From NCBI RefSeq assembly GCF_000744775.1, contig NZ_JQMP01000003.1, positions 1,302,001 through 1,366,000 of the forward strand: a stretch of DNA of 64,000 bases, in the 5' to 3' direction. The notes beneath the pieces are model-generated. The model made no database searches, was not told the origin of the DNA, and saw nothing but the letters and a program-made list of their open reading frames with translations. Below are positions 39,671 to 47,792 of the stretch, one piece after another (the stretch's first letter is position 1; every line of letters begins with the position of its first letter). The DNA is from Thermorudis peleae. Lineage in GTDB: Bacteria > Chloroflexota > Chloroflexia > Thermomicrobiales > Thermomicrobiaceae. Both the position numbers and the translations under genes were made by a program.

Positions 39671-41332
39671 TTAGGGGATTTCCGGCACGGTGCAGGCTTC
39701 GATCTGCATGGGCTTCGCCCCGGCGCAATTGCGCACGTCAGCGCTGCCCAATTGACCAGTGACGGTGGCATTGAACGTCACGGTGACGCTCTGCCCAGGC
39801 GCCAGCGCTGGCCCGTTGCAGAGCACCTGCCCCCCGCTGAAGCTGCAGGACCAGCCGCTCAGGCTGGCGCTAAACGGCCCGCTGAACGTCATGCCGCTCG
39901 GCTGGCTGTCGCTGATAGTGAGCGTTGTCCACGGGGTGGTGCAGCCAGCCGGCCCAGCATTGGTGAGGGTGATAGTCACCTTGGCTGGGTGCCCGGACTG
40001 TGTTGGCTTGGCAGGATTGCCGCCATCTGTCAGGACCACCTGCTTGGCTAAGCGATACTGGCAGAACACTGCCTGCTGCGTCGGCGTCGGCGCGATCGTT
40101 GGGGTTGCCGGTGGTTGCCCGGCTGGTACGGTCGCGCAGGCGTGATTGTTCTGTGGGGTATTGTCAGCAACATCAGACACCGTCGCGCAGTTCTGCGTCC
40201 CTGGCTTGGCCTGCGCCGTCAGGGTGAAAGTCGCGCTATAGCCTGGTGGGAGCGGATTGGCTGCCATGCATTGCCAGGTTGGCGTGCAGCTCCACCCGGC
40301 GGTGCCGCCCGATTCCGTCACGCTGGGGGCTGAGGCATAGGCCATGCCGGTTGGCTGTGGGTCATTGACCGTTTCACCCGATGGACATTGCCCCGAGCCA
40401 ACGTTCGTCACAGTGACGGTGATCACAAAGACGCCAGGTGTGCTTGTAGAATCGATCGTCTTGGTGATTTGCAGGTCGCAGTGTGTCGATGGAGGCGGCG
40501 TGCCAACTGGTGCTGTCGGATTGGGCCCCTTTGTCGGGATGGGCGTCGGTGGCACTACTGTTGCCGGTACCGCCGTCGCGGGCACGACCGTGACGGGAAC
40601 AGCCGTCGCGGGCATCGGTCCGCCCCCGGTTGACCCGGTCGGTGTCGGCAGCTGCTCATGCAGGCACAGCCGGAGCGTGAGGTAGTCGACGCTCGTGTCG
40701 TCCTCGATCTGGACGTCGAGAACACCAGAGCTGTTCATCGCTGCGACCACGCTTGGATTGAGCGTCACGGTGAGCAGCTGCGGTGTGGGGTAGTTCGATG
40801 AATTCCACGGGTTTGGGAGCAGCCCAGTGATGCTGCCGGCTGTGCCGATGCGCGTCTGATAGACGAGGGCTGGGGTTGCCCCGCTAGAGAGGGCCAGACC
40901 GTCGTTCTCTGGCTCACCACTCAGCGGCTTCACGCGTGTTTCGAGTTGCGCTGCCACGATGAGCCCGCCGCTTGGTAAGCCGGTGAACGAATGCAGGAGA
41001 TGCTGGTTCGGTACGGTGCCATCGAACCCTGTTTGCGGCGGATTACCCACCGCGCTCACGAACGCTGGGCGGGGCGATGGGGCAGGGTCAGGGCTCGCAG
41101 CGAACTGATCATCTGCACCCGCCGTATACGTCTTCACCATGCCAGGAGCCGGACACTGAAAGGCCGTTCCGGTTCCTGGGTTGCCGGGGGTCAACGAAAT
41201 CGGCGTCTGCGGAACTTTTGTGGGGAGCACTGCGGTCGCGACTGGGGTCAGGTTCCCCTTGCACGCCGCAAGTATGAGCACAAGCGCAAGCAACATGCTC
41301 GAGACGATGGTCGGGCGAACGCGAGCTTGCAT
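39671..41332 (-). CDS. Surface lipoprotein with two DUF11-like domains
   Basis: A 553-residue exported lipoprotein. The signal ends LLALVLILAACKGNLTP (lipobox). Residues ~50-220 are a domain shared with the next upstream gene (ALSSGATPALVYQTRIGTAGS, WNSSNYP, SGVLDVQIEDDTSVDYLTLRLCL). A Pro/Thr/Val linker follows, then two DUF11-type repeats (CDLQITKTIDSTSTPGVFVITVTVTNVGSGQCPSGETVNDPQP and CQYRLAKQVVLTDGG...TLTNAGPAGC). DUF11 domains are common in bacterial surface proteins. ATG 41332 follows GGAGG with 7 bases between. Confidence 0.85.
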   Translation of the reverse strand: MQARVRPTIVSSMLLALVLILAACKGNLTPVATAVLPTKVPQTPISLTPGNPGTGTAFQCPAPGMVKTYTAGADDQFAASPDPAPSPRPAFVSAVGNPPQTGFDGTVPNQHLLHSFTGLPSGGLIVAAQLETRVKPLSGEPENDGLALSSGATPALVYQTRIGTAGSITGLLPNPWNSSNYPTPQLLTVTLNPSVVAAMNSSGVLDVQIEDDTSVDYLTLRLCLHEQLPTPTGSTGGGPMPATAVPVTVVPATAVPATVVPPTPIPTKGPNPTAPVGTPPPSTHCDLQITKTIDSTSTPGVFVITVTVTNVGSGQCPSGETVNDPQPTGMAYASAPSVTESGGTAGWSCTPTWQCMAANPLPPGYSATFTLTAQAKPGTQNCATVSDVADNTPQNNHACATVPAGQPPATPTIAPTPTQQAVFCQYRLAKQVVLTDGGNPAKPTQSGHPAKVTITLTNAGPAGCTTPWTTLTISDSQPSGMTFSGPFSASLSGWSCSFSGGQVLCNGPALAPGQSVTVTFNATVTGQLGSADVRNCAGAKPMQIEACTVPEIP

Positions 41333-41408
41333 CACGCTATCCTCCTTCGACACACATCGAGCTTCTGCACACGTCGAGCGACACCGGAGCAGTTGGACTT
41401 CCGCTCTG

Positions 41409-42794
41409 CTACTGCACGGTGACGCACTGCAGGTTGTTCTTCGGGTTCAGGTCAGCATTCTGTGGCACGATGCCCTGCGCACAGTTCCGTGCGGGCTTCT
41501 GGGTCACCGTCGCCGAGAAGCTGATGGTCACGCTGTACCCAGCAGGCAGCGGATTCACTGCCGTGCAGCTATTGCCACTGCATGACCAGTCGGATGCTGC
41601 TCCCGCTGGGGTGAAGACGAGTGGCCCACCGAACGTCATTGATCCGGGCGGCGTCGGGTTGTCACTGATCTGGGTGCCAACGGGGCAGGGCCCTGAACCA
41701 GCGTTGTGCACCACAATGATCACCGCGTAGAGTCCTGGTTGCGTGGTCGGCTGCATGAGCTTATCGACCACGAGGTCGCATCCGCTGGTGGGCGTGGCCG
41801 TCGGCTGCGGCGTTGGTGTTGGCTGCGGCGTTGCTGTCGGGGCGACCGTTGGCGTAGCCGTCGGCATCGGCGTTGGTGTGGGGGTGGCAACGGGGACGAC
41901 GGTGACACCCACGATCACCGTTGGCTGCTTCACGATCGTCGGGGTCGGCGTTGGACTCGGCAACGGCACGGGGGTCAGGCCGCCACTGACCACCGTCCCC
42001 TTCTTGATCGGGGTCGGGGTTGGCGTCGGCTCGGTGTCGAGGGCGGTTGTCGGCCCGGTCACTGTCGCTGGCACAGCGGTGAGGGGCGGTTTGGGCGTTG
42101 GTGTTGCAGTCGGCGTCAGTGTCGGGGTCGGTGTTGGCGCGGGAAGGCACAGCAGAAGCTGGATCAGTTGCACCTGGGTATCATCGCCGATCGCGACGTC
42201 CAGCACGCCTGCAGCGAGGATCGTGCTGAGCTGCGATGCGCTGAACACGTAGGAGAAGGGGACAAAGTTCGGATAATTGCTCGGCGTCCAGGCATTGGGC
42301 ATGACGCCTGCCGTGCTCCCGCTCGTGCCGAACTGAAACTGCCCGAGTTGCGTCGGCGTTGCCCCACTGTACAGCTTGGTTCGATCGTCCTGTGACGCTG
42401 GGGAGGCTGGAGGGCGTGCCGAGATGTGCAGGATACCGGCGAGTGGCGTCGTAGGTGCACTGACGGTGAAGGTATGGAGATACCAGGTCGATCCTGACAT
42501 AACGCTCAGGTTGATCTGGCTGTAGTATGACGGGTTACCGAGGGTCGTGAGCAAGGCAGGGCGCGGAGTCAGCGCTTGGCCGTTGCCGACACCTTGTGCC
42601 ACCTGGACTGTTCCAGCCGGGCACCACGTGTTGCCACTGCTTGCCCCGGGAGTTGGTAAGGGGATCGTCGGGGTCGGCGATGGCGTCGGGGATGCTGGCT
42701 GCCCAGCAAGCCAGCCGCTACACGCTGCCAGCACAAGTGCACTCACGAGCAGCGCAATCAGCCAAAACGGTCGAGGAGAAAACAGGATTCGCAC
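41409..42794 (-). CDS. Paralogous surface lipoprotein with one DUF11-like domain
   Basis: A 461-residue paralogue of the 39671 gene. Lipobox LVSALVLAACSGWL, a PTPSPTPTIPLPTP linker, then the shared N-terminal domain (LYSGATPTQLGQFQFGTSGSTAGVMPNAWTPSNYP, GVLDVAIGDDTQVQLIQLLLCL). A very long Thr/Pro linker (about residues 220-345) leads to a single DUF11-type domain (CDLVVDKLMQPTTQPGLYAVIIVVHNAGSGPC). GTG start with GGAG upstream. It lies 140 bases behind the ECF sigma gene, in the same orientation. Confidence 0.85.
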   Translation of the reverse strand: MRILFSPRPFWLIALLVSALVLAACSGWLAGQPASPTPSPTPTIPLPTPGASSGNTWCPAGTVQVAQGVGNGQALTPRPALLTTLGNPSYYSQINLSVMSGSTWYLHTFTVSAPTTPLAGILHISARPPASPASQDDRTKLYSGATPTQLGQFQFGTSGSTAGVMPNAWTPSNYPNFVPFSYVFSASQLSTILAAGVLDVAIGDDTQVQLIQLLLCLPAPTPTPTLTPTATPTPKPPLTAVPATVTGPTTALDTEPTPTPTPIKKGTVVSGGLTPVPLPSPTPTPTIVKQPTVIVGVTVVPVATPTPTPMPTATPTVAPTATPQPTPTPQPTATPTSGCDLVVDKLMQPTTQPGLYAVIIVVHNAGSGPCPVGTQISDNPTPPGSMTFGGPLVFTPAGAASDWSCSGNSCTAVNPLPAGYSVTISFSATVTQKPARNCAQGIVPQNADLNPKNNLQCVTVQ

Positions 42795-42934: not shown

Positions 42935-44236
42935 TTATCGGCAAACGAGCGTCAATGTATGCGTCGAACCGCGCGCCAGGGGCAGGTGGCGCGTCCCCTG
43001 GCCGAGCAATTCCTGCCCGTCCCACAGGACCTGCGCAAGATCGACGTCAATGCGGATCTGGACGGGTACCCCGTCGATGGCCAGGTCGGCTGCAGCCGGC
43101 GTTACCGTCGTACGCAGTGTGCCAAGCGGCAGGTGCCAGTGCACCGGCTGACCTGGCTCCAGCACGGTTGGTAACCCGGTTGCTCGCGCTACAAGATCAC
43201 CAGCCCCGCCAAAGCGCAACTCAAGCGGCGGACAGTTAGCAGTCTGGAGGGAAACGTCAACGGTGCCCCAGAGCGCTCCAGCCACGCCGAGCGCGGTCAA
43301 GGCGACGAGGGCAACCGTCCCGATCACGACTTTCCCCAACGCCGTGCTGGTCAACCAGTGACCGGCGCGAGACGGCGCCGAGGATGGTGTTGCTGGCGCA
43401 GTTGCGGGCCGCATTGCCTGCGTGACCCGCTCGCGCAGTGTCTCTCGCAAGGCTGGACTTGGCACAATGGGCACAAGCGCCGGGAGGAGTTCAACTGCGG
43501 TCGCGTAGCGGCGGCGGTTACGCTGGCAAACCTCGCACTGGTTGGCATGACGCGCAACGGCTCGCCGCAATGCTGGCGTTAAGTCAGCCGGAAGGGTGTA
43601 GCCGGCCAGCAAGGACGCAAGGGCGGGGCAGTCGGCGCGTCCACGCTTGGCCAGGATGAGCGTGGTGAGACTCTCCTCAAGGGCGTCGCGAAGGCGGCTC
43701 AGGCGCGTGTGGATGCTGCCGCGGCTTGCGCCGGTTGCCTGCGCGATTTCCTCGGGCGAAAGGCCTTGCCGCACGCTGAGATCGAGCAAGGCATAGTCAG
43801 CCGGGTTCAGCCCACGGGCTGCCTGCCAGACGAGGGCCGCGAGCTCAGCTTGCGACGCAGCAGCCTCAGGGTCATCACCAGCCCCGCTGCTCAGCTGGGC
43901 CGGTTGCCACTCGTCTCCCTCCGGCGTGCGCAGCGCCGACAGCGGCGTTGTCCGCCGGCGGCGCAGCTGGTCGATCGCCACGTTCCGGGCAATCGTGAAG
44001 AGCCATGGACGCACGCCACCCTGCGGTGGGCGCTCGCGCAACGCCGTCAGGGCTTTGAGGAATGTCTCCTGGGTCGCATCAGCCGCTGCCTCGCGGTCGC
44101 CGAGCAGCCGGGCCGTAAAGTCATAGATCCGGTCGACATACCGTTCATAGAGCGTGACGAACGCGTTGTCGTCACCGTGTGAGAAGCGGTACACGAGTTC
44201 ATCATCAGTTGGGGCAAGCGCGATCTCCGTTGTCAT
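42935..44236 (-). CDS. ECF sigma factor fused to anti-sigma-like membrane protein
   Basis: A 433-residue fusion. Residues ~12-90 are sigma region 2 (DDELVYRFSHGDDNAFVTLYERYVDRIYDFTARLLGDREAAADATQETF). Residues ~135-190 are sigma region 4 (LSPEEIAQATGASRGSIHTRLSRLRDAL). A zinc-finger-like H230-x3-C234-x2-C237 (HANQCEVC) follows, then a Pro-rich linker, one membrane helix (~300-323) and a ~110-residue outer domain. Anti-sigma zinc fingers are usually separate proteins. ATG 44236; the frame extends upstream to 44446 without support. Two lipoprotein genes follow. Confidence 0.88.
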   Translation of the reverse strand: MTTEIALAPTDDELVYRFSHGDDNAFVTLYERYVDRIYDFTARLLGDREAAADATQETFLKALTALRERPPQGGVRPWLFTIARNVAIDQLRRRRTTPLSALRTPEGDEWQPAQLSSGAGDDPEAAASQAELAALVWQAARGLNPADYALLDLSVRQGLSPEEIAQATGASRGSIHTRLSRLRDALEESLTTLILAKRGRADCPALASLLAGYTLPADLTPALRRAVARHANQCEVCQRNRRRYATAVELLPALVPIVPSPALRETLRERVTQAMRPATAPATPSSAPSRAGHWLTSTALGKVVIGTVALVALTALGVAGALWGTVDVSLQTANCPPLELRFGGAGDLVARATGLPTVLEPGQPVHWHLPLGTLRTTVTPAAADLAIDGVPVQIRIDVDLAQVLWDGQELLGQGTRHLPLARGSTHTLTLVCR

Positions 44237-45060
44237 GGCACGGTACCCACGCCCAGTCCTGACTCCCCATGGAAAATTCTTGGCAGCGATCGTAGCATAC
44301 CCACGCCAGGGACGCGAGTCAGAGGGGCGGATAAACCACCCCGCTGTGTATTCCACGCAGACCCCTGCCTGTTTCTCACAGGATGAGCCTTCCGCTCTAG
44401 CGTAAGCGTTTCCTGGAACCAGAACGCGTCGCGCATTGCACTCCACCCTCAGGCTGGACAGCTCTGGCGGAAACGTCTTCTGGAGCCAGAACAGTCACCC
44501 GCCTGCTCCTGCAGCAACGTCGCCGCAGTGGATACTGCTCGCGCCCACTGTGTTGCGGTGAGGCGTGCTGCGTTGTTCGTGGTTGCTCGCTGCCTCGCTG
44601 TCCTGGCGAGGGACTGGGTGGTGACGTCCTCAAGCAGCAACGGTGGGCATGCGGCGTGCGTCGTCCATTCCCACACGATGCCGCCGCGTGCTGCATACGG
44701 TCAGGGTTCCCTGTCGCGGGGGGCGACGTTCAGCTTGCTGGATGGTGCCAGTGCGCCTTCTCCTCCAGAACCGTCTCGTTCCGGTCGTCGAATGAGGGCT
44801 CCGTCGGAGCGGGAGCAGTACTCGCCCTCGGGCTCGACCGTCTTGCCTGTGATCTAACGAGGGGGCTCCGTTGGCGTGGGAACAGTACGGCAATCCCGGC
44901 GGTTTGGCGCTCACGGCAGAGGCGCGAGCGTAGCTGTGGGGTAAACGCGCGCGTGGCTGTAGAGTAAAGCGGGGCAACGAGGCTCCCGGCCTCGCGATAC
45001 CCGGCCGTTTCTGCTGTCAACTGACAGCAGAAAGGAGGATAGTCATGAGGCGAGATGCAG
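44237..45060. other. 820-base gene-free region with a near-repeat
   Basis: No convincing gene. TGGAACCAGAAC and TGGAGCCAGAAC recur about 70 bases apart near 44410-44500. A second pair, GAGGGCTCCGTCGG with GAGCAGTAC and GAGGGGGCTCCGTTGG with GAACAGTAC, lies about 67 bases apart (44794-44821 and 44859-44890). Sigma-factor promoters were not obvious. Confidence 0.5.
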
Positions 45061-46166: not shown

Positions 46167-47792
46167 ATGGGACATGTCCGTCGCCTCTACCTCTCTGTCG
46201 TTGCTGGCGTGAGCCTGGCTGTCTGGGCGACTGGTGCTGTCCTGCTCCTGCGGCAACTCGTGCTCGCGGTGTGGGATGCTGCGACAGGCGTCGTGCTCTT
46301 CGCTGGCGGCACCGTTTGGCGCCAACAGCTTGGCGTCAGCCTTGCCCTGGTGCTCGTCGGCCTGCCGGTGTGGGCACTGCACTGGAGCTGGATCGAACGC
46401 ATCAGCGCGCGTGAGCCTGCAGAGCGGCGGTCAGTTGTCCGAGCCTTGTACCAGGCCGTTGTGTTAGCCGTGACCTTCTCAACCTGGATCCGGAGTGCCG
46501 TCGCCGTGCTCGCTGCGCTCCTGCGTGCCATGCTCGGTGCGGAGGGTGTCAGTGACGTTGCGCCGCTTGTGCAGGACGGCGTGCCGGCACTCCTCGTCAG
46601 CGGTGGCGTGTGGTGGTTCCATCGCCGGTGGCTCCGCATCGACTGCCAGTTAGCCGAGCGGCGGGGGGCTGCAGCGTGGATCCCGCAACTCTACTGGTAT
46701 AGCGCAACGGGCACTGGGCTGACCTTGCTGGTGGTCGGCGTCGCGTTGCTCCTGCGTGCCGCGCTCGATGCCGTTCTCCCGGCGACCGTGCTCGTCGGGT
46801 CGTTGCACACCGCTGTGTCACGCGCGCTTGCGCTTTCCGTCAGTGGGCTCGTGGCGTGGGGGCTGCACTGGCCGGCAGTGCTCCAGGGCACACTCGACGC
46901 AGCGCCAGCTGACCAACGGCGTTCGGCCATCCACTGGGGCTATCTCACCGTCGTCGTCTTTGCCAGCCTCGCAACGCTGCTTGCCGCGCTCACGGTTGTG
47001 CTCCAGGTCGCGTTGGGCTGGATCGTGGGTGTTTCGGATGGCGACACCGTTGCTCGGACTCGGCAGATACTGCAGCCGCTTACCTGGCTGCTACCGGCCT
47101 TGCTGGTCTGGTGGTACCACCGTGCAGTGCTGCGCCATGAGGCGGCGGTGAACGCCACTCTTCAGCCGGCCGGCACAGACTGGTTCACGAATGCCGGTCG
47201 CGTGCTGCGCTACGGGTCGGCGTTTGTTGCCTTGCTCTTTGCTGGACTCGGGCTCAGCCGCATGGTGAGTCTGCTGGTCGATGCACTCTTCGCGCTGCTT
47301 GTCAGCCAGCCGGTTGGGAGTTGGCGACGTGATTTGGCTTTCGGTCTGGCAGTGGCGGGCTCCGGCAGCGGCGCCTGGCTCGTCTTCTGGCGCGCGATCC
47401 TTGCAAGCTGGGCCCGCGATCCATCCGGAGAGCGGAGTAGCCTGAGTCGCCGGGCCTATCTCTACGCGACGCTCGGCGTGAGTGTCCTTGCGCTGCTCGG
47501 GTCAGCTGCGTCGGTGCTTGCGCGCCTGCTGAGCTGGCTGCTCGGCGCTGAGAGCGCAGCGGTTGCCCTGACGAGCAGCGCGCCGGCCTTGGGAATCATG
47601 CTTGTTGCCCTCATGGTGCTTGCCTACCATGGCCAGGTCTTACGACGCGATCTGCGCGAGGCTGGGGCCGCGCCAGCGGCTGGCGCGACGGTGCGCCTTG
47701 TGCTCCGTCTGCCGCCTGGCAGCGATCCTGAGGGCGTTGTGCAGGAGCTTGCAGCACATCTTCCACCGGGGGCACAGCTTGAACGCAGGTAG
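46167..47792 (+). CDS. Membrane protein of six tandem DUF5671-like repeats
   Basis: A 541-residue protein made of six ~85-residue repeats, each with two membrane helices: starts near VRRLYLSVVAGVSL, RALYQAVVLAVTF, PQLYWYSATGTGL, HWGYLTVVVFASL, GRVLRYGSAFVAL and RRAYLYATLGVSV. Several end in WxLHWxW- or WWxHRRWL-type text. This gives 12 helices with no transport motif. A ~50-residue cytoplasmic tail closes it. The unit resembles DUF5671, normally found as one or two copies. Function unknown. Confidence 0.82.
   Translation: MGHVRRLYLSVVAGVSLAVWATGAVLLLRQLVLAVWDAATGVVLFAGGTVWRQQLGVSLALVLVGLPVWALHWSWIERISAREPAERRSVVRALYQAVVLAVTFSTWIRSAVAVLAALLRAMLGAEGVSDVAPLVQDGVPALLVSGGVWWFHRRWLRIDCQLAERRGAAAWIPQLYWYSATGTGLTLLVVGVALLLRAALDAVLPATVLVGSLHTAVSRALALSVSGLVAWGLHWPAVLQGTLDAAPADQRRSAIHWGYLTVVVFASLATLLAALTVVLQVALGWIVGVSDGDTVARTRQILQPLTWLLPALLVWWYHRAVLRHEAAVNATLQPAGTDWFTNAGRVLRYGSAFVALLFAGLGLSRMVSLLVDALFALLVSQPVGSWRRDLAFGLAVAGSGSGAWLVFWRAILASWARDPSGERSSLSRRAYLYATLGVSVLALLGSAASVLARLLSWLLGAESAAVALTSSAPALGIMLVALMVLAYHGQVLRRDLREAGAAPAAGATVRLVLRLPPGSDPEGVVQELAAHLPPGAQLERR

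Follow-up and report, generated by a model that had tools for sequence, protein, structure and literature searches.

A single-chain ECF sigma/anti-sigma protein of Thermorudis peleae and the pairing of its outer domain with DUF11 lipoprotein genes

Fusions of an ECF sigma factor with its anti-sigma have already been published, namely ECF52, ECF48 and ECF53 of Actinobacteria and IutY of Pseudomonas putida, as described in the available portions of two papers (PMC8999054, PMC5826349). According to the same portions, ECF52 is exclusive to Actinobacteria and harbours a proline-rich stretch and a carbohydrate-binding module (PMC5826349, PMC8999054). In the available text of PMC8999054, activation by proteolysis is expected for ECF48, ECF52 and ECF53, and cleavage by Prc and RseP was shown experimentally for IutY (ECF243), in which the sigma is fused to a membrane-bound anti-sigma. 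Single-chain fusions are few in the literature covered, where, as far as the available parts of the papers go, the tested examples are IutY and SCO4117. The genome paper of Thermomicrobium roseum, in the portion available, reports the absence of genes for outer-membrane proteins, considers a standard outer membrane unlikely and mentions the term 'sigma factor' solely for FliA (PMC2615216).

We analysed a stretch of 64,000 nucleotides of the Thermorudis peleae genome (contig NZ_JQMP01000003.1, positions 1,302,001 to 1,366,000 of the forward strand), hereafter called the window, with coordinates counted from its first letter. It harbours a single open frame, starting with an ATG at 44236, whose product combines an ECF sigma, a zinc segment, a membrane helix and an outer domain (Table 1). 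An alternative in-frame GTG upstream, at 44446, would extend the protein to 503 aa, but, with residues numbered from the ATG, similarity to the orthologues sets in only at residue 8-10, which counts against the longer form. The protein has the sigma-70 regions 2 and 4 without region 3 that characterize ECF sigma factors (Pfam, TIGR02937), with a match to the NCBIfam entry TIGR02937 (sigma70-ECF) at 93.3 bits for a cut-off of 42.9 and a region 4 match only slightly above its own cut-off. The seven other ECF matches in the source genome all lie in frames of normal size (205-265 aa). The initial annotation proposed an ECF sigma that carries a finger, a helix and an outer domain in one chain and one frame, and this is a real entity according to Pfam, NCBIfam, hydropathy and the orthologues described below.

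Table 1. Features of the fused sigma gene and of the lipoprotein genes, in window coordinates
Feature	Coordinates	Strand	Evidence
Fused ECF sigma / ZAS anti-sigma / membrane / outer-domain protein, 433 aa	42935..44236	(-)	Open frame, Pfam, NCBIfam, orthologues
Sigma region 2, residues 29-95	43952..44152	(-)	Pfam PF04542 Sigma70_r2, 3.5e-16, 59.2 bits, cut-off 24
Sigma region 4, residues 136-186	43679..43831	(-)	Pfam PF08281 Sigma70_r4_2, 8.4e-6, 25.8 bits, cut-off 25.7
ZAS-type zinc segment, C203-x26-H230-x3-C234-x2-C237	43526..43630	(-)	Ligands invariant in 7/7 aligned family sequences; profile match to RskA-type anti-sigma
Single membrane helix, about residues 299-321	43274..43342	(-)	Hydropathy up to 2.28; helix 299-322 in structure model
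Outer beta domain, residues 325-433, invariant C335 and C432	42938..43264	(-)	Alignment; AlphaFold2 model
Lipoprotein A: lipobox, Cys-framed N-terminal domain, Pro/Thr-rich stalk, one DUF11-like domain	41409..42794	(-)	LAAC lipobox
Lipoprotein B: same plan as A, two DUF11 domains	39671..41353	(-)	Pfam DUF11, 3.6e-21; LAAC lipobox
Candidate housekeeping-type -10 element TACGAT, upstream of the sigma gene	44289..44294	(-)	By eye; weak

Anti-sigma domains of the ZAS type (class I) harbour the motif C/H-x~25-H-x3-C-x2-C adjoining the sigma. Of the five Cys residues of the window protein, three are in its finger segment and the other two, C335 and C432, frame the outer domain; all five, as well as H230, are invariant across the seven aligned family sequences. 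C203, absent from the initial description of the finger, is likely the fourth zinc ligand. The ligand pattern is visible by eye in all 24 fused proteins that we collected. The Pfam zf-HC2 signature gave no match with the window protein at E values up to 1; among ten phylum relatives scanned, it matched two above its cut-off (38.2 bits in G327 and 23.2 bits in G492) and three below. Positions 204-281 of a profile built for the family match a separate anti-sigma encoded in this genome (E 3.4e-6, iE 4.9e-6). This protein, at locus L047, adjoins another sigma and is identified as an RskA-type anti-sigma by its zf-HC2 (5.3e-11) and RskA_C (1.6e-23) domains. The match argues that the finger segment is an anti-sigma domain, and two-gene and fused arrangements therefore coexist in one genome. 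The initial statement that sigma and anti-sigma are normally separate has to be qualified by the fusions already in print (ECF52, ECF48, ECF53 and IutY). Hydropathy indicates one membrane helix per protein in all nine proteins aligned. The full-length structure model has a mean pLDDT of 62.4 overall and is poor near the ZAS segment.

The outer domain, of approximately 109 residues, was modelled with AlphaFold2 from ten sequences (mean pLDDT of 90.4, pTM of 0.80) as nine strands and one helix, and its two Cys residues make it disulphide-capable. In the window protein, it corresponds to no recognised Pfam family. Foldseek searches with the model gave nothing at E <= 0.001, a profile search of the PDB sequences gave a best E value of 0.17, and the best VIA-align 2 hit was a streptococcal pilin (Z 5.3 over 83 residues, 3.4 A), rated middling by the tool. 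Comparisons with the N-terminal domain of the lipoproteins or with DUF11 revealed no homology (hhalign probability under 1%). Of note, another genome (G287) codes for a small, separate membrane protein (L078, 6616-7302 (+)) with a window-type outer domain and a helix, without sigma or ZAS segments, in addition to a fused sigma with another outer domain.

We searched 41 genomes, i.e., that of T. peleae and 40 relatives, all of which yielded ECF matches. The full-length fused protein was found in just seven of them (T. peleae, G002, G005, G009, G011, G013 and G016), which belong to three genera of the same family and represent 7 of its 21 genomes. The six family orthologues share 53-57% identity with the window protein in the search and 51-55% over the alignment. 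A class-wide profile search retrieved 9 of 158 genomes at E <= 1e-40, corresponding to the same seven and two looser matches (G030 and G025). Thermomicrobium roseum DSM 5159 harbours a full-length orthologue on its megaplasmid (TRD_RS13910), annotated merely as 'RNA polymerase sigma factor', and two genomes from a distant family of the same phylum (G400 and G341) have preserved the whole layout, including the window-type outer domain. Because the layout is preserved in every orthologue found, it is not due to chance. The initial annotation had called for a look at sister genomes, mindful of a frameshift or of relatives with separate genes. The same fusion is present in six family genomes, T. 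roseum and the two distant genomes, and no split orthologue was found among the genomes searched. An assembly frameshift joining two genes is excluded, as the fusion is in one frame in all seven family genomes, T. roseum and the two distant genomes. A contig search with the single window protein as query gave a plain ECF of Parapedobacter as its sole match.

Sampling 400 genomes of the phylum yielded 16 with a match at E <= 1e-36, which is a lower bound since no more than four candidates per genome were scored at this threshold. Fused sequences were chosen with the full-length profile, and this selection favours fused proteins. Ten of the 16 genomes lie outside the family and harbour eleven fused genes, two of them in one genome. 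All eleven proteins share the sigma-ZAS-helix core, and their outer parts vary: they are of the window type in G400 and G341, several consist of long Pro/Thr-rich stalks and further domains, and that of G492 is a right-handed beta helix (Pfam, 6.5e-10). In the two looser matches of the class-wide search, G030 and G025, the outer part resembles a carboxypeptidase-regulatory-like domain (E values of 2e-6 and 0.0011, both below the cut-off). In a tree of sigma domains, 23 of the 24 fused proteins, including those of Actinomycetota, are on one branch (SH-aLRT 97, a quick method that provided the only support values, with several long branches in the tree), apart from 28 unfused ECFs, a narrow comparison set made up of the best-matching ECFs of one order and of the source genome. 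The remaining fused protein, from G327, is placed among the unfused ECFs. A constraint uniting all 24 fused proteins was not rejected (p-AU 0.108), and one uniting the 21 non-actinobacterial fused proteins was weakly rejected (p-AU 0.0385). Because 23 of the 24 group together and G327 is elsewhere, the sequences suggest one main fusion event with later exchange of outer domains, plus at least one independent fusion.

The two paralogous lipoprotein genes that the initial annotation placed after the sigma gene are both present. That of lipoprotein A is on the same strand, about 140 bases downstream, and that of lipoprotein B probably starts with an ATG near 41332. The Pfam DUF11 signature matches lipoprotein B above its cut-off (76.1 bits) and lipoprotein A below it (15 bits for a cut-off of 24.6); a profile made from their own and related DUF11 domains, hence not independent, detects the domain in both. 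The usual set downstream of the sigma gene, found in G005, G013, G009 and T. roseum, comprises three lipoproteins with one, one and two DUF11 domains, and the same three-lipoprotein set is present in the distant G400 and G341, with a Laminin-G-type domain (2.2e-31) in one lipoprotein of G400. G002 has one DUF11 lipoprotein gene adjoining the sigma gene and a second copy elsewhere. Altogether, intact DUF11 genes are found downstream in 8 of the 10 window-type loci (the window, G002, G005, G009, G013, T. roseum, G400 and G341). In G016, the contig with the sigma gene ends and the three-lipoprotein set is on a separate contig. In G011 (L042), a broken DUF11 lipoprotein remnant readable in three frames lies just downstream of the sigma gene, and a lipoprotein A-like gene is found elsewhere in the genome.

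Of the 21 family genomes, 7 match the lipoprotein A DUF11 domain strongly (E <= 2.6e-33), and these are precisely the ones that harbour the fused sigma. Weaker DUF11 matches were obtained in G018 and G019 (3.4e-18 and 2.2e-16), on contigs ending inside lipoprotein genes, and a search for a fused sigma in these two genomes found none. No DUF11 gene was found beside the 14 fused sigma genes with other outer domains, within flanks of unequal lengths (about 3 to 15 kb), which argues that the pairing with DUF11 lipoproteins follows the outer domain. This co-occurrence supports the sigma-lipoprotein association much better than the initial annotation, made from the window alone, could know, and the novelty is in the neighbourhood: this outer domain is accompanied by DUF11 lipoproteins, usually three. 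We also observed that the DUF11 domain of lipoprotein A (41412-41810 (-)) is 74% identical to its counterpart in the distant G400, compared with 53-58% identity to its best own-family matches. For the sigma protein the order is opposite, with 36% identity to G400 and 56% within the family, and domain exchange or horizontal transfer therefore likely accounts for these sequence similarities.

The upstream neighbour of the sigma gene is not conserved, with tRNA genes in the window, an annotated aspartokinase gene in T. roseum, and aspartokinase genes recognised by eye in G002, G005, G009, G013 and G016. Orthologues show, by eye, TAGGAT or TACTAT in similar places to the candidate -10 element of the window. 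The suggestion that a shared promoter motif might be found did not hold: simple scans of five lineages gave no ECF-type motif common to the sigma gene and the lipoprotein genes. These scans looked for dyads made of 5 and 4 exactly matching bases with a spacing of 13-19, in the sigma-upstream regions and in the sigma-lipoprotein gaps. In each set, one dyad reached three lineages; shuffles averaged 0.03 with a maximum of 1 for the sigma set, and 0.13 with a maximum of 2 for the lipoprotein set. The sigma-set dyad, GGATA-N19-GCGA, sits in a conserved 20-base element of the divergent aspartokinase-sigma gap (L039 6921, L040 8447, L041 9784, L042 9087, L043 6755 and L044 1844), which is perhaps the aspartokinase promoter. 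This element occurs once per genome in four of the five genomes searched (the four relatives) and is absent from the window genome as well as from the T. roseum and G400/G341 loci. Given this distribution, the element is not one that the sigma gene shares with the lipoproteins. The octamer CGTTGTAT, just past the sigma stop codon in the window, G009 and T. roseum, reaches three of the five lineages, as do 22 of 40 shuffles.

Two further observations were made in the window. Upstream of the sigma gene, TTCTGG[CT]TCCAG occurs in two copies 67 bases apart (44413-44424 and 44480-44491 (-)); the palindrome-like pattern TTCTGGNTCCAG has four occurrences in the genome, its reversed control has zero, and this repeat is possibly an operator. 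The gene at 46167-47792 (+) codes for a 541-aa protein with three DUF5671 stretches (7.1e-48), probably a multi-pass membrane protein.

We consider it fairly probable that the window protein is a self-inhibited, membrane-tethered ECF sigma freed by regulated proteolysis, with the lipoproteins as its targets, its signal partners or both. The sequences establish the domain layout, its conservation, the pairing with lipoprotein genes and an M50 protease in the genome; zinc binding, targets and signal are inferred, as are inhibition in cis and cleavage, which its anatomy and its published relatives suggest. The ZAS segment would hold sigma regions 2 and 4 of the same chain inactive, and the single helix would display the small, disulphide-capable beta domain outside. 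Sensing of a cue by this domain would lead to site-1 cleavage outside, after which an M50 (RseP-type) protease would make the site-2 cut within the helix. Once the ZAS stub is trimmed, the sigma would be free to reprogramme RNA polymerase. The source genome has six matches to M50 proteases (best 186.7 bits); as nearly all genomes have such proteases (all 14 of the 14 controls), their presence carries little weight. From gene position and co-occurrence, the downstream lipoprotein genes would be the most likely sigma targets, and the outer domain may in addition monitor the lipoproteins themselves. Several points speak against this scheme: there is no common ECF promoter in our scans, the sole promoter-like sequence preceding the sigma gene resembles, by eye, a housekeeping one, the window protein is below zf-HC2 detection, the full-length model is too poor near the ZAS segment to display a contact with the sigma, and G011 retains the sigma despite the decay of the adjacent lipoprotein gene, albeit with a lipoprotein A-like gene elsewhere. 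The absence of a common motif would also suit lipoproteins that are signal partners only, transducer-like and holding the regulator off, and so would the fact that their presence tracks the type of outer domain rather than the sigma core, as seen at the 14 loci without DUF11. Nevertheless, a same-strand position so close downstream is equally compatible with target genes, and a lipobox-anchored protein on a long stalk need not contact the regulator, and we regard the partners-only role as rather unlikely.

The tethered sigma might also be active without proteolysis, if the protein were opened by binding to the outer domain or by a change of redox state or zinc in the ZAS segment, as in soluble redox-responsive anti-sigmas. 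ZAS domains have this same C-H-C-C ligand set, and some of them are responsive to thiol oxidation. Conformational activation is known for other ECFs with C-terminal extensions, according to the available text of PMC8999054. However, the anchor and the conserved outer domain indicate a signal from outside, and anchored relatives are cut (proven for IutY and expected for ECF48, ECF52 and ECF53 in the same portions of PMC8999054), making activity in the tethered state unlikely in our view. Finally, an extension that serves as a passive membrane anchor or is a decaying fusion, without regulation, would accord with an outer domain devoid of recognised family or clear fold match, but is very improbable given the family-wide conservation of the zinc ligands and of both outer Cys residues, and a sigma-ZAS core conserved phylum-wide with differing outer domains.

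A more tentative extension, which we place on the unlikely side, is that of a dedicated surface-layer switch. The outer domain would directly read the assembly state of the neighbouring DUF11 lipoproteins, distinguishing free or unassembled from assembled ones, and the freed sigma would set their expression; Chloroflexota-type bacteria and Actinomycetota would have reused the same old core with different sensors, each exchange bringing its own partner genes. Regardless of this scheme, the lineage forms a compact natural series, with the same core, different outer domains and, for one of these, fixed lipoprotein partners. It is well suited to asking how an anti-sigma acts in cis, whether release strictly requires proteolysis and how one sensor domain comes to replace another, and it gives a handle on the possible control of DUF11 surface lipoproteins in Thermomicrobiaceae. 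What merits testing is the association of one outer domain with a constant group of surface lipoproteins.

In titles and abstracts on ECF/anti-sigma fusions, Chloroflexi ECFs, T. roseum sigma factors and DUF11, a body of literature including few subscription papers, we recognised no description of this protein or of its DUF11 pairing. Compared with known systems, the RskA/RsiW-type anti-sigmas have a homologous ZAS segment, a helix and an outer domain, as exemplified by the L047 pair of the same genome, but they are coded by separate genes and have RskA_C outside. IutY belongs to iron-starvation cell-surface signalling, as described in the available text of PMC8999054; the window protein gave no Pfam match to FecR or STN at E values up to 1 and thus differs from the IutY type. 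For ECF48 and ECF53, the comparison is with their published description, in the portion of PMC8999054 available. Fused ECFs on actinobacterial replicons, from Kitasatospora (L129), Streptomyces sp. BHT-5-2 (L128) and Nonomuraea (L127), share the core and the branch of the sigma tree. Their outer parts consist of a stalk and a CAP domain in Kitasatospora (1.9e-20) and, by eye, in Streptomyces sp. BHT-5-2, and of a stalk and a domain without family assignment in Nonomuraea, and no DUF11 genes were found beside the three. ECF52 (SCO4117 of Streptomyces coelicolor) is alike in combining an ECF sigma, a zinc finger, a membrane region and an extracytoplasmic extension in one chain, according to the available portions of PMC5826349 and PMC8999054. 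In contrast to ECF52, the window protein has no carbohydrate-binding Pfam match and no proline-rich stalk, its nearest named relative is in Thermomicrobiaceae and not actinobacterial, and DUF11 lipoproteins are encoded downstream. The fusion of sigma and anti-sigma was thus known before, and the pairing of this outer domain with DUF11 lipoproteins is new.
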